DNA of 64,000 nt from Cecembia rubra (lineage in GTDB: Bacteria; Bacteroidota; Bacteroidia; Cytophagales; Cyclobacteriaceae), in assembly GCF_003014575.1 (NCBI RefSeq), contig NZ_PYGF01000015.1:1-64000 (forward strand), written 5' to 3'. The notes beneath the pieces were generated by a model. The model was not told where the DNA came from, ran no database searches, and saw only the letters and a list, made by a program, of their open reading frames with translations. The position numbers and the translations under genes were made by a program. Below, piece after piece: positions 29,113 to 33,667 of the stretch; positions within the stretch are counted from its first letter, which is position 1, and each line of letters begins with the position of its first letter.

Positions 29113-29191
29113 GGATAGGTTATTAGGGATTAATTTGAAATGAGGGATAAGGTAAAACGATTTAGGGATTTTTCAAACCACTGATTAATTT

Positions 29192-29540
29192 AACCAGAGA
29201 TGAAATTGGATAAAGATTAAAAAATAAACCACAGATGAATGTGATGAACACTGATAAAATGAATCTGGGATGAAAATTGATTTTCTATGATTACTGAATA
29301 TGGGATAAGGTTTGACTAATTCAGGTGAAGTTTTAACAACAGATGAAATTGGAAAAAGAAAAAAAATGAACCACGGATGAATGGGATGAATACTGATAAA
29401 TGATTCAGGGATAATGATGGATTTTCTATGATTACTGAATTTGACAATTGATTTGAGGTATTCAGGTAAAGTTTTAACCACAGATAAATGGGATGAACAC
29501 AGATAAAATGGATAAGGGATGAATGAGGATTAACGCAGAT
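29192..29540 (+). repeat. Left array of degenerate repeats flanking the GxxExxY gene
   Basis: At least three imperfect direct units of 133-141 bp (starting near 29200, 29333 and 29474) share ACCACAGATGAA, GATGAACACTGAT and TTTTCTATGATTACTGAAT blocks. No long conserved reading frame is credible; the repeat-driven open frame on the minus strand is a by-product. Orientation is opposite to the array at 30072-30420. Confidence 0.75.
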
Positions 29541-29624
29541 AAAAAATGATTTAATCGGTTATTTAAACGGATAATATGAAACGCATTTGACTAATAGCGG
29601 TTATTTTTTGGAAAATGATTTGTT

Positions 29625-30002
29625 ATGGCATGGGATTATGATTGGATCACTGAAGAAATAATTGGCAAAGCCTTTAAGGTTTCCAATACTTTGGGTGCAG
29701 GTTTTCTGGAAAAGGTTTATGAAAATGCATTGGCTATTGAATTAAGAAAAAGCGGATTTTCTGTCAATCAGCAATATCCAATACATGTGCATTATCAAGG
29801 AGAAATAGTAGGAGAATATTTTGCCGATCTATATGTGGAAAAAACGGTAATTATAGAATTGAAGACAGTAAAAACCCTAGATGATATTCATTTGGCTCAA
29901 GTTTTAAACTATTTGAAAGGCACAAGAAACTCAATAGCACTTTTAATCAACTTTGGAGCTCCAAAAGTCCAAATCAAAAGAGTAATCAATAATGTTTTAT
30001 AG
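29625..30002 (+). CDS. GxxExxY-family protein, PD-(D/E)XK-like
   Basis: This 125-residue protein has the family's name-giving motif in LGAGFLEKVYENALAIEL (G-x-x-E-x-x-Y within GFLEKVY), at about residues 24-41. A nuclease-like core follows: FADLYV (acid) and IIELKTV (E-x-K) fit the D-(x)n-ExK geometry of PD-(D/E)XK endonucleases; catalytic activity is unproven. Length (120-130) is normal. It has no operon partner and sits alone at the centre of two oppositely oriented repeat arrays, which suggests a selfish or mobile unit rather than a host gene. The start is the ATG before AWDYDW. Confidence 0.85.
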   Translation: MAWDYDWITEEIIGKAFKVSNTLGAGFLEKVYENALAIELRKSGFSVNQQYPIHVHYQGEIVGEYFADLYVEKTVIIELKTVKTLDDIHLAQVLNYLKGTRNSIALLINFGAPKVQIKRVINNVL

Positions 30003-30071
30003 ACAAATCGACCTGTTATTTTGAACTAATGATGCTACGGAAAGTGTGAATACAATAATTAAAACGAAGTT

Positions 30072-30420
30072 TTATCAATATTTATCAGTGTCTATCTTTG
30101 GTTAAATCATCAGTGTTCATCGGCGTTAATCTGCGGTTAATTCATCCATTTTTATCCACCATCAGTAGTCATCAGGTTGAATCAATGGTTCATTCTATTT
30201 TCACAAATAATATCAGTGTTTATCGGCGTCTATCTGTGGTTAATTCATCTATCATTTATCCAATATCACTAATCATCCGAACTCATACTCGGTTAAAACT
30301 TTTGTCAACATTCATCTGTATTTTTTATTCCCAAGATCAGTGTTTATCGGCGTTAATCTGTGGTTAGTTAATCCTTTTTTATATTCATCATCCGCGTTCA
30401 TCCAATTTATCTGTGGTTAA
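30072..30420 (-). repeat. Right array of degenerate repeats flanking the GxxExxY gene
   Basis: Copies of ATCAGTGTTCATCGGCG followed by TTAATCTGCGGTTAATTCATCC occur near 30084, 30109, 30211 and 30336. They are the reverse complement of motifs in the left array; for example, the reverse complement of 30109-30138 aligns with 29227-29255 at most positions. The array ends exactly at the stop codon of the fucosidase gene. Confidence 0.75.
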
Positions 30421-32478
30421 TTAATTATCCCTGGTAATTACACCAAGTTCTGCAAAGGAGCCCTTCAATCCATCCGTAGTTCCCAATGCCCTCAGCCGGA
30501 AATACCTTGCATCCACCCCATCAAATCTTATAGTCTGCTCAATAGGATTGTTGTAAATATTTGAGAATTCGCCCAGAGCCCTATCTGTCCAGTTCCTGCC
30601 ATCCATACTACTTTGAAAAACATACCTGTTAATCACACCACTCATATACCTATTTTGAGGAGGAAGGTAAGTAAATCCATGAATTGTGATGATCTCTCCT
30701 AGATCTACAGTCAACTCATCACCTGTACTCTGCCAAAAGGTGTTGGGATCCTCGTCAATGGCTTTTTCAGCATTGGGAATATTGTGGATAACTTTCCATT
30801 TAGCCTTGGCTATATCCACGTCTTGGACCAAAATCTCACTCAATTGACCGGTAGCGGGGTCATGACTGATGGCCCTCAATTGGACCGCTTGATCCACCAT
30901 CACAGGCCTTTCATATTTAATACTGTTGATGCTTGGATTACTGCCATCCAAGGTATAATAAATATCCACATTGCTTCCGGGAACATTCAAAGTCACGGCT
31001 CCCGATTTATCCCTTTCCAACACCGGCTCGATCAGCAAGGCAGGTGCATGGTAAACTCCAATTCTGGAAATAGTAGGGCTTGCTTTTGCATCGGTAATGG
31101 TAAACCTCAAAGCATCTGTATCCACATCCTCAAATCTTAGGATTCTCTTAGCCCCAATGGTAGTTCCATTGTGGATAAGTTCCCAGCCTTTTTCTGTTTT
31201 GGCTTCCAATGTAAAAGCCTTTACCCTTTGGCCTAAAGCAATATGCTCTTGGGCCATAAACCTGTTAATGCTTTGTTTTTTAGGAAATTGTATAAGTATT
31301 TCATTGTGGATAACTCCATCTTCAGCTGCCCAATACTTATTTTTTTCCTCATTGAGCACCTGCTTGATTTCAAAGCCTCTACCTCTTTCATTGGAAGCGC
31401 TTAACTTGGCTTTTTGGGCCAGGTCTACGGCAAAATCTTCCTTGATTTTTGTGGATAACTTCATGATTTGTTCCACGTCTTTCTCATGGATCAAACCTCT
31501 TCTATCCACAGGGAAGTTGATCAAGAGAGCGGCATTTCTGCCAATGCTATTGTAATAGATATCCAGCAATTGGGGGAGGGTTTTGACCTTGTGATCCTCG
31601 TATTCATGGTAGTACCATCCCGGTCTAATGGATACATCCGCTTCCGCCGGCACCCAATGGGTGCCGGCTTCCTGTCCTGAAGCATATTTTTCAGGATATT
31701 CCGGCATACCGGCATAAACAGAGTCCCGCATCAAATTGGACCAAGTGGTCTCATAGGCATATCCCTCCTCATTGCCAACCCAGCGCACGTCCGGGCCGCC
31801 ATCGCTGAACAATACCGCACCGGGCTGCAATTCTCTCACCAAGGCATAGATATTGGGCCAATCGTAATAAGTCAACTTATCCACATAGCGGTTTTCATTG
31901 GCACCACCATAGAAGCCGGTTCCCCCGTTGGCTCCGTCAAACCATACCTCAAAGATTTCTCCGTAATTGGTCAATAGTTCAGTCAACTGATTCCTCATAT
32001 ATGTGATATAGGCCGGTGTGCCATATTCCGCATGGTTCCTGTCCCAAGGGGAGTAATAAATTCCCATTTTTAGACCAAACTCCTCACAGGCTTCCCTCAA
32101 CTCTTGGATCAAATCTCCCTTTCCATCTTTCCAGGGGGAATTTTTTACGGAATGTTCGGTATAAGCGGAAGGCCAAAGACAGAAGCCATCGTGGTGCTTG
32201 GCCGTGATAATAATGCCCTTCATGCCTGCCTCCTTGGCTACTTTGGCCCATTGGCGGGTATCCAAAGCTGTGGGGTTAAAGTCTGCCGGATCTTCATCCC
32301 CCATGCCCCATTCCATATCCGAAAAAGTATTCATATTGAAATGTACAAAGCCATAGTATTCCAGGTCATGCCAGGCTAGTTGAGCCTCGGAAGGAATGGG
32401 ATATACCGGTGCTGGAGGAGCTACACCAGGGCCTTGGCAAGCACATACTATAAGAAATAGAAGGAGGCATTTTTTCAT
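30421..32478 (-). CDS. GH29 alpha-L-fucosidase lipoprotein
   Basis: This 685-residue protein has a lipoprotein signal (MKKCLLLFLIVCAC, Cys14). The GH29 catalytic barrel spans about 30-340: YYGFVHFNMNTFSD, ITAKHHDGFCLWPSAY and the nucleophile Asp181 in EVWFDGANGG. Then come a beta domain, a chitobiase/FN3-like segment near 490-550 (YYTLDGSNP) and a C-terminal discoidin (F5/8 type C)-like domain (about 570-680, TFWQSTGDELTVDLG). It removes terminal fucose from glycans at the cell surface. The coding strand contains four perfect TTATCCACA 9-mers and a fifth lies in the other orientation, which is unusual. The repeat array abuts its stop codon. Confidence 0.92.
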   Translation of the reverse strand: MKKCLLLFLIVCACQGPGVAPPAPVYPIPSEAQLAWHDLEYYGFVHFNMNTFSDMEWGMGDEDPADFNPTALDTRQWAKVAKEAGMKGIIITAKHHDGFCLWPSAYTEHSVKNSPWKDGKGDLIQELREACEEFGLKMGIYYSPWDRNHAEYGTPAYITYMRNQLTELLTNYGEIFEVWFDGANGGTGFYGGANENRYVDKLTYYDWPNIYALVRELQPGAVLFSDGGPDVRWVGNEEGYAYETTWSNLMRDSVYAGMPEYPEKYASGQEAGTHWVPAEADVSIRPGWYYHEYEDHKVKTLPQLLDIYYNSIGRNAALLINFPVDRRGLIHEKDVEQIMKLSTKIKEDFAVDLAQKAKLSASNERGRGFEIKQVLNEEKNKYWAAEDGVIHNEILIQFPKKQSINRFMAQEHIALGQRVKAFTLEAKTEKGWELIHNGTTIGAKRILRFEDVDTDALRFTITDAKASPTISRIGVYHAPALLIEPVLERDKSGAVTLNVPGSNVDIYYTLDGSNPSINSIKYERPVMVDQAVQLRAISHDPATGQLSEILVQDVDIAKAKWKVIHNIPNAEKAIDEDPNTFWQSTGDELTVDLGEIITIHGFTYLPPQNRYMSGVINRYVFQSSMDGRNWTDRALGEFSNIYNNPIEQTIRFDGVDARYFRLRALGTTDGLKGSFAELGVITRDN

Positions 32479-32704: not shown

Positions 32705-33667
32705 ATGAGAATTGTACAGTTTAAATTTAAAGAAAAAGGTACCAAGGTAGCTTTGGTAGATGGTGAAAAGGTAAGGCTACTTAAGGATGTAAACAGCACC
32801 TATGACTTGAGCCAAAGGGTATTCAAAACAGGGAAAAGCCTTGTTGAATTGGTGGAGGCACTTGTTGGTGATGAAACAGAAAATTATCAAGACTTATTGG
32901 ACAAAAAACAGATTTTGCTTCCCCTTTCACATCCTGATCCCTATCATACCTGGGTCACTGGAACAGGTCTTACCCATTTAGGGTCTGCTGCTTCACGTGA
33001 TGAGATGCATCAAAAATTAAAAAAGAGTAACCCTAATGAGCTTACAGATTCAATGAAGATGTTCCAAATGGGACTTGAAAATGGGAAAATGTTAAACGGA
33101 AATCCAGGAGTACAACCAGAATGGTTTTACAAAGGGAATGGGCTATCGGCAATACCTTCAGGCCATGAATTGCTTTCTCCTCCCTTTGCTCTGGATGGTG
33201 GAGAAGAACCTGAATTGGCAGGACTTTATGTGATTGATCCGGATGGAAAACCTTTTAGGCTAGGTTTTGCCATAGGAAATGAATTTTCAGATCATAAAAT
33301 GGAAAAAATCAATTATCTCTATTTAGCCCATTCCAAACTAAGAAACAGCGCCTATGGACCTGAAATCTTATTGACCGAGCTTCCCGATCATTTGGTGGGA
33401 TTAAGCCGAATCCTAAGAGGGGACAAAGTGGTATGGCAGAAGGAGTTTCTAACAGGAAATGCCAATATGAGTCATAACATCGCCAATTTGGAATACCACC
33501 ACTTTAAATATGACATGTTCAGGCAACCTGGGGATGTACACGTACATTATTTTGGTACTTCAGTGGCAAGTTTTGCGGATGGGATTGAAGTGCAAAATGG
33601 GGACAGATTTGAAATTTCGATCCCTGAACTCGGAAAACCACTCATCAACACATTGAAACAGGTATAA
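32705..33667 (+). CDS. GguC/AraD1-like fumarylacetoacetate-hydrolase-fold protein
   Basis: This 320-residue protein has an N-terminal beta-rich part (MRIVQFKFKEKGTKVALVDG). A fumarylacetoacetase-like domain follows, with metal-binding segments LDGGEEPELAGLYVIDPDG and GNEFSDHKMEK and a C-terminal FGTSVASFADGIEVQNGDRFEI. The pattern corresponds to the GguC/AraD1 group, members of which are linked to arabinose and related sugar-acid catabolism (2-keto-3-deoxy-sugar acid dehydration). No sugar operon surrounds it, so its substrate here is uncertain. It is transcribed alone, divergent from the fucosidase gene. Confidence 0.8.
   Translation: MRIVQFKFKEKGTKVALVDGEKVRLLKDVNSTYDLSQRVFKTGKSLVELVEALVGDETENYQDLLDKKQILLPLSHPDPYHTWVTGTGLTHLGSAASRDEMHQKLKKSNPNELTDSMKMFQMGLENGKMLNGNPGVQPEWFYKGNGLSAIPSGHELLSPPFALDGGEEPELAGLYVIDPDGKPFRLGFAIGNEFSDHKMEKINYLYLAHSKLRNSAYGPEILLTELPDHLVGLSRILRGDKVVWQKEFLTGNANMSHNIANLEYHHFKYDMFRQPGDVHVHYFGTSVASFADGIEVQNGDRFEISIPELGKPLINTLKQV

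Follow-up and report, generated by a model that had tools for sequence, protein, structure and literature searches.

What keeps a single small gene between two arrays of repeats that mirror each other across it, and does the encoded protein act on these repeats or spread with them? The question arises from a 64,000-nucleotide stretch of the Cecembia rubra genome (the window; the beginning of contig NZ_PYGF01000015.1), in which a gene of the GxxExxY family is placed in this way (Table 1). A preliminary description of the window had proposed that gene and arrays form a possibly selfish unit.

Table 1. Features of the GxxExxY locus and its neighbours in the window.
Feature	Position	Strand	Description
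Gluconate 2-dehydrogenase subunit 3 family gene, PF13618	28558..29112	-	Other anchor for site comparison
Left array	29179..29550 (ends approximate)	+	Degenerate words ACCACAGATGAA / GATGAACACTGATAAA, oriented towards the gene
GxxExxY gene	29625..30002	+	125 aa, TIGR04256 / PF13366 PDDEXK_3
Right array	30081..30420 (start approximate)	-	Left-array words on the minus strand; its last base directly precedes the fucosidase stop codon
Alpha-L-fucosidase gene, PF01120 plus C-terminal F5/F8 type C domain	30421..32478	-	Anchor for cross-genome site comparison

Besides the words given in Table 1, the plus strand of the left array carries GATGAACACTGAT, with counterparts on the minus strand of the right array; the word underlying both facing arrays is a degenerate CACAGAT. 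When at most one mismatch was allowed, CACNGATDAA was found upstream of the gene ten times on the plus strand and once on the minus strand, and downstream ten times on the minus strand and never on the plus strand. Nine of the 12 exact sites in the 64-kb window belong to this unit and the remaining three are isolated. An alignment between the upstream flank and the reverse-complemented downstream flank gave a mirror score of 52, compared to 21 in direct orientation; 60 dinucleotide shuffles averaged 24.3 and did not exceed 36. Strand counts and mirror score confirm the mirror-image arrays of the preliminary description, and two of its details were also reproduced: positions 29227-29255 and the reverse complement of 30109-30138 share 25 of 29 bases in an alignment with one gap, and the right array's final word (30411-30420) adjoins the stop codon of the fucosidase gene (30421-30423). 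On the other side of the fucosidase gene lies a 320-aa open reading frame (32705-33667, plus strand) without a Pfam match at 0.001.

GxxExxY is the only gene in the window unit, which contains no transposase of a known class. The predicted open reading frame is present, and its description as PD-(D/E)XK-like was borne out by the profile search that had been suggested as a check, with matches far above the curated cut-offs to TIGR04256 (2.3e-42, 144 bits; cut-off 35) and to PF13366 (2.5e-41, 141.1 bits; cut-off 22). In an alignment of 68 proteins, G24, D68, E78, K80, Q92, N109, and F110 are invariant, as are G26, E29, and Y32 of the GxxExxY motif; D68, E78, and K80 provide an acidic residue and an E-x-K motif at the places expected for PD-(D/E)XK enzymes. 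An AlphaFold2 model of the window protein (pLDDT 94.7) has the PD-(D/E)XK, or restriction-endonuclease-like, fold. Its best match in the PDB is Cas4 SSO0001 (4ic1; Foldseek 1.4e-4, VIA Z 10.3), followed by restriction-type enzymes and by Hjc at Z 7.6; the matches named here are a selection, and there may be further ones. The window protein is likely a nuclease. Its identity as a tyrosine (HUH) transposase was rejected, since profiles and fold are those of PD-(D/E)XK and the H-V-H triplet of the window protein lies outside the family consensus.

No PDB sequence matched the profile at E-values up to 10, and three GxxExxY proteins searched against PHROGs gave nothing significant. The PADLOC defence models returned weak, partial matches for the same number of proteins (best 7.6e-4; 0.002 for the window protein). 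Among the Cas4 models, Cas4b was weakly matched by the protein of locus L071 over 61 residues only (7.6e-4), and the window protein matched none; the latter is free of cysteine and thus has no Cas4-type iron-sulphur cluster. Of the 60 genomes from this bacterial family and the 118 sampled from the phylum, 40 and 59, respectively, have GxxExxY matches above the cut-off. Three matches (G085:C9:91044, G113:C1:72354, and G097:C22:338277) lie within open frames of 883 codons, possibly as fusions to a larger protein. In our searches of the open PMC literature, the GxxExxY domain was found mentioned in passing and PDDEXK_3 gave no result. These searches showed no account of GxxExxY units, and queries with the repeat strings returned only seemingly unrelated papers.

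The association of the gene with facing repeats extends far beyond the window. To score symmetry without reference to any word, we locally aligned the upstream flank of each gene with the reverse complement of its downstream flank. The loci had been picked by similarity to a query alignment or as best matches per genome and are therefore a non-random sample. A first set comprised 69 loci with long enough flanks from the same genome, genus, family, and phylum (two were dropped for short flanks); 47 of them beat all 60 of their 60 shuffles in facing orientation and 32 did so in direct orientation. In a second set of 79 loci, drawn from 80 named genome contigs and three viral contigs with four dropped for short flanks, 62 reached a score of at least 28 in facing and 26 in direct orientation, compared to 1 and 2, respectively, of 147 control intervals within the same loci. 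Another 48 Flavobacterium loci included 37 with facing arms at this threshold, so that arms were missing at 28 from 17/79 loci of the second set and from 11/48 of the Flavobacterium loci. The coupling of gene and repeats and their mirror symmetry thus hold for most loci. In part, the refuting condition set in the preliminary description speaks against a strict unit, given the armless loci and a decayed left array that stands alone in a relative of the window genome (see below). As many loci carry direct repeats instead of, or in addition to, facing ones, tandem duplication also shapes the arrays.

Facing arms scoring at least 28 were found in Bacteroidota (45/59), Cyanobacteriota (4/4), Planctomycetota (3/3), Acidobacteriota (2/3), Ignavibacteriota (1/2), Thermodesulfobacteriota (1/1), Lentisphaerota (1/1), SAR324 (1/1), and the viral contigs (3/3). 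They also occur in a metagenome-assembled genome labelled Rhizobium, which is probably mis-binned, as its flanking genes look flavobacterial. Armed loci hence span seven named phyla, or eight with the doubtful Rhizobium genome, in addition to SAR324 and three viral contigs, which bears out the statement of the preliminary description that GxxExxY genes stand in such surroundings in unrelated phyla. We set aside a viral origin of the units, since only three related loci came from the viral collection; plasmid records contributed eight.

The plainest unit measures about 440-500 bases. It begins with an outer cap (TTAACC, TTTCAC, or TTTCTC), followed by words such as CGCAAAG and by the gene, and is completed by the reverse complement. 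Across 145 units the median arm length is 38 bases, and word starts are 8-10 bases apart in 256 of 327 spacings. Arms can be perfect inverted copies, as in Hymenobacter daecheongensis (L118), where 52 of 52 bases agree. The arrays of the window are longer than most arms because stretches within them are duplicated at intervals of about 103-142 bases (about 141-142 in the left array); the window unit is an enlarged form of the plain one. The window genome (G000) has ten GxxExxY matches, of which two are truncated tandem copies and one contains an in-frame stop. Its copies differ in their words: CACAGAT in the window, CGCAAAG at L003, CGCAACG at L005, CACGAAT at L006, CACAAAG/CACGAAG at L009, and CATTAAG at L008. 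At L009 and L010 (G000:C6:248900-249700), a truncated GxxExxY frame occurs twice, head to tail and 490 bases apart, each time together with its CACAAAG/CACGAAG arms. A further variation is seen at L004 (G000:C2:166955) and at L021 (G001:C1:2570888) in a second species of the genus, where the gene lies within repeats of about 250-270 bases on both sides; these repeats contain palindromes of the kind GTGTAATTCGTGGACAG...CTGTCCACGAATTACAC.

Which words a unit carries follows the lineage of its protein. Word classes (C[AG]C plus four letters) were set by hand according to our own scheme from the aligned arms of 145 units, of which 129 could be classed and 16 could not; automatically enriched 7-mers had been tried before and were replaced because poly-A and poly-T swamped many loci. 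On a FastTree protein tree, which rests on few alignment columns, word class changes 27 times, compared to 56.7 times when classes are shuffled (sd 2.2, minimum 49 in 300 shuffles), and the CAC/CGC letter changes 15 times versus 40.2 (minimum 32). An earlier, cruder labelling had given 34 versus 52.7 changes for class and 11 versus 42.4 for CAC/CGC. When each protein was paired with its nearest relative in another genome, the two units had the same class in 44/46 cases at 80% identity or more, in 30/43 at 70-80%, in 13/31 at 60-70%, in 3/8 at 50-60%, and in 1/1 below 50%, where chance predicts 0.18. Within the first set, the window protein is most similar to that of L035 (64% identity), a unit that also has CACAGAT words. 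Units within one genome agree no more often than by chance (8/59 pairs; 0.18), and the eight units of G000 fall into six classes. Binning all pairs by BLAST identity gave a diffuse picture, with the lowest bins below background, and was abandoned in favour of the tree and the nearest-neighbour counts.

Part of this agreement is due to shared descent, as some of the close pairs are orthologues from a single site in related species. However, non-coding DNA that has diverged so far should be randomised unless it is selected, and we therefore infer that the protein reads the word. The co-inheritance of words and protein suggests that each GxxExxY protein would recognise its own word class, which lends indirect support to the earlier proposal that the protein acts on the repeats.

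The history of individual sites bears on whether the unit moves. In G001, which belongs to the genus of the window genome and has a fucosidase 90% identical to that of the window, the site lacks the gene and the right array yet keeps a decayed left array. Comparison with relatives lacking the unit, as the preliminary description had envisaged, thus uncovered a remnant of the unit. In G002, a genome of another genus with a fucosidase 71% identical, the site holds a GxxExxY gene in the opposite orientation (67% identity to the window protein over 115 residues), with a mirror score of 33 and a direct score of 55. The GxxExxY gene beside the same fucosidase in G002, together with the decayed array in G001, indicates a long residence of the unit at the window site, where the gene would either have flipped between its arms or have been replaced. 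The G001 site (L167:1100-1400) further contains a repeat-like stretch with the inverted pieces CCCCTGGTGAAACCAGGGG and CCTGACCCTAAAAGGGTCGAAC in place of the gene, perhaps another kind of small element. A different situation is found between genes that we read from the sequence as LysR and histidine ammonia-lyase, where G000 (L003) and G001 (L022) hold different units: the flanks are 83-88% identical, the proteins 54%, and the words are CGCAAAG and CACAAAG, respectively.

In the 13 of 17 protein pairs with a finite dS, dN/dS ranged from 0.025 to 0.099; several of these pairs have a dS above 1 and thus only rough values. The low ratios in these pairs argue that the GxxExxY gene works and is not debris. 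Given this purifying selection in the pairs measured and the age of the unit at the window site, the label 'selfish' is not supported. The suggestion that the unit spreads fared better: gene-less copies (see below) and different units at one site speak for it, although no movement was caught. Visual inspection of the outer flanks at 27 loci, among them no clean pair of filled and empty strains, showed no evident target-site duplication, and no excision product was seen. At L002 (positions 1337-1958), a unit lies between 42-bp direct repeats with one mismatch, which look like a histidine kinase gene's 3' end; the unit thus gives the impression of having been inserted or exchanged there. L023 (992-2101) and L007 (1236-1848) share 613 bases of the unit at 99.5% identity in two species and in different contexts. 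The L023 copy, in G001, is missing its right arm and is flanked by two inverted, near-identical sequences of about 250 bases; as these resemble insertion-sequence ends, we did not take L023 as evidence for the unit's own mobility.

The repeats also occur without the gene, for example in G178 (Flavobacterium panacis, reached through L143). A pattern of two neighbouring words matched 84 times in this genome and its reversed control never; the corresponding counts were 63 versus 0 in G181, 22 versus 1 in G000, 7 versus 1 in G177, and 2 versus 1 in G001. G178 has eight gene matches to GxxExxY. Twenty stretches picked from its word matches were all free of GxxExxY within about 1 kb; 16 had facing arms and four a single arm. 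In one of them (L283), a CACGAATT hairpin is nested inside a CGCAAAG hairpin, which belongs to a different class. The palindrome of L280 matches the arms of L295, a full unit in the same genome that ranks third best of 145 units. Gene-less elements of 109-110 bases with facing ends are also found in G000 in two mosaics, L226 and L227 (G000:C10:13800-16700 and 72600-74100). Both mosaics are dense, mixed with GAT-type words, and several kb away from reported GxxExxY matches.

The intergenic site between hemN and a cyclase gene in Flavobacterium, which is occupied by the unit at ten named loci, was surveyed in the best 29 of 74 genomes with the cyclase among 81 searched. Gene and arms were present in six genomes, gene-less regions of at most 110 bases in 20, and longer gene-less regions in three. 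Words in the short regions face each other (p < 0.01 in 16/20, 0.012 in two, 0.024 in one), except for one region of 29 bases that has none. This word-orientation test was added after a hairpin test in which 5 of 18 gene-less sites beat 40 shuffles, most hairpins being imperfect. The classes at gene-less hemN sites vary between CACAAAG, CACGAAG, and GAT types. Tandem amplification is seen at the same site: L233 has three gene-less copies, L234 repeated gene ends and right arm, and at L124 the left arms are repeated together with the end of hemN. At L235 the gene suffered an internal deletion that left both of its ends. Every one of the 21 Flavobacterium genomes checked has one or more GxxExxY matches at other places, which would allow the gene to act on gene-less elements in trans.

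We bring together the coupling of gene and arms, their facing symmetry, the match between word class and protein lineage, the gene-less elements, the purifying selection in the pairs measured, and the different units at one site in a single reading, to which we give about an even chance (roughly 50%): GxxExxY units, that of the window included, would be a large family of small elements in which each protein lineage recognises its own words and spreads the unit and its gene-less derivatives. The unit would consist of a PD-(D/E)XK gene between two facing arms of short words (CRCNRAG, CACAGAT, CACGAAT, and others), and each protein lineage would bind its own word class in DNA. The protein may then nick or cut at the facing arms, in double-stranded or extruded DNA, and cutting might drive the copying or exchange of the unit and its gene-less derivatives between intergenic sites, resembling the role proposed for RAYT proteins on REPINs.

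Other explanations account for parts of these data. Hairpins of facing words might be mobilised by some other transposase, with small genes such as GxxExxY and S23 caught in their loops. We included as a comparison family free-standing S23/IVP genes (L196-L225), which encode a four-helix bundle, a fold unrelated to that of GxxExxY. Facing arms of at least 28 were found in 16/30 and direct ones in 3/30 of these loci, two of which are cut by contig ends so that their gene edges are uncertain; their words are others and have a shorter period, e.g., TAGACACAAGAC, GTACCAAGTAC, and GAGAAGCGAGAG. Either S23 and GxxExxY are two families that converged on one lifestyle, or both ride more general arms. 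The excess of word-pair over gene matches in G178 and the bracketing of L023, as if carried by an insertion sequence, would suit passengers as well. However, passengers offer no reason for word class to follow the protein tree or for units of one genome to differ in class, and the word-protein match argues for convergence, in the GxxExxY case only. We consider such passengers unlikely. It is quite improbable, too, that GxxExxY is a vertically kept host gene whose words serve as operators, terminators, or mRNA-protecting hairpins and whose gene-less sites are deletions. Purifying selection, the long vertical stay at the hemN and window sites, and the deletion at L235 are what a host gene would predict, but gene-less elements dispersed away from any GxxExxY gene, the nested hairpins of different class at L283, word classes that differ between species at one site, and a site that two genomes of one genus fill with different units are not.

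Pairing of the arms in a transcript, so that the element is processed or protected at the RNA level in the manner of 23S rRNA intervening sequences, has a very slim chance of being the explanation. It has a precedent: passages of PMC4990558 describe the S23 intervening sequence of Coxiella as a 428-nt element with an open reading frame and a 28-bp terminal stem, and such sequences as lying inside 23S rRNA, bounded by inverted repeats of about 30 bp and processed by RNase III. The S23 genes studied here have arms, too. However, the mismatches between arms at 98 loci comprise 110 G-U and 119 A-C pairs and hence show no wobble excess, and covariation between the arms of hemN-site orthologues was not significant. 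At this site, left arms did not match their own right arms significantly better than those from other species (43.5 versus 40.7; permutation p 0.11), which means that the arms need not pair mutually. A protein that reads each arm, more than a hairpin of RNA or DNA as such, is what the lack of both a wobble excess and a significant preference for the own arm suggests. Alternatively, an intergenic homing endonuclease might cut unit-free sites and spread by repair from flanking homology. GxxExxY presumably resembles PD-(D/E)XK homing endonucleases, and the nuclease fold, the different units at the same site, and the direct repeat of the kinase gene end around the L002 unit would agree with homing. 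We nevertheless judge it very improbable, as it leaves unexplained why the facing words belong to the unit itself and why gene-less copies are dispersed in unrelated intergenic places.

If lineage-specific recognition and spread by the protein are correct, GxxExxY, a named but functionally blank family, acquires a role, with the repeats around the gene as substrate. Many puzzling repeats of Bacteroidota, Cyanobacteria, and further phyla could then be assigned to a gene. The match between protein lineages and words would also provide natural pairs of protein and DNA word from which a recognition code could be read.

Several known systems resemble GxxExxY units in part. The fold and the positions of D, ExK, and Q are shared with Cas4, lambda exonuclease, and Hjc, from which GxxExxY differs in having no significant PDB sequence match and, in the window protein, no cysteine. 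Insertion sequences and MITEs have terminal inverted repeats and gene-less derivatives. GxxExxY units share both features, with inverted repeats as perfect as those of L118, but they have neither a DDE nor a serine/tyrosine transposase and no clear target duplication. The 23S rRNA intervening sequences, in the passages cited above, are likewise small, carry a single open reading frame, and are bounded by inverted repeats, whereas GxxExxY is a different protein and the units read here lie between protein genes.

The closest parallel is found with REPIN-RAYT systems. Passages of Bertels and Rainey (2011; PMC3116915) describe a gene with cognate inverted short repeats, several repeat classes per genome that each stand beside their own gene, gene-less inverted doublets between genes, tandem clusters, and co-diversification of gene and repeats. 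As far as these passages go, GxxExxY units correspond in each respect: the gene is flanked by cognate inverted repeats (62/79 loci versus 1/147 controls), gene-less inverted doublets are dispersed (16/20 picked stretches in G178), and several classes per genome, tandem clusters, and gene-repeat co-diversification occur as well. In contrast, RAYT proteins are tyrosine (HUH) transposases and GxxExxY is PD-(D/E)XK by profile and predicted fold, and the GxxExxY repeats are arrays of short spaced words whereas REPs are single palindromes. On present evidence, we regard GxxExxY units as a variant of the REPIN-RAYT kind. We tentatively entertain, at somewhat less than even odds, that they form a class of mobile DNA of their own. 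A PD-(D/E)XK nuclease alone would then recognise lineage-specific spaced words in the facing arms and move its own gene as well as large gene-less populations. Such units would be a counterpart of REPIN-RAYT systems that originated with an unrelated enzyme, and S23-type units might represent a third case of this lifestyle. If so, the way of living of REPIN-RAYT systems, in which one conserved gene tends small palindromes that lie scattered, came about with a nuclease unrelated to RAYT proteins.
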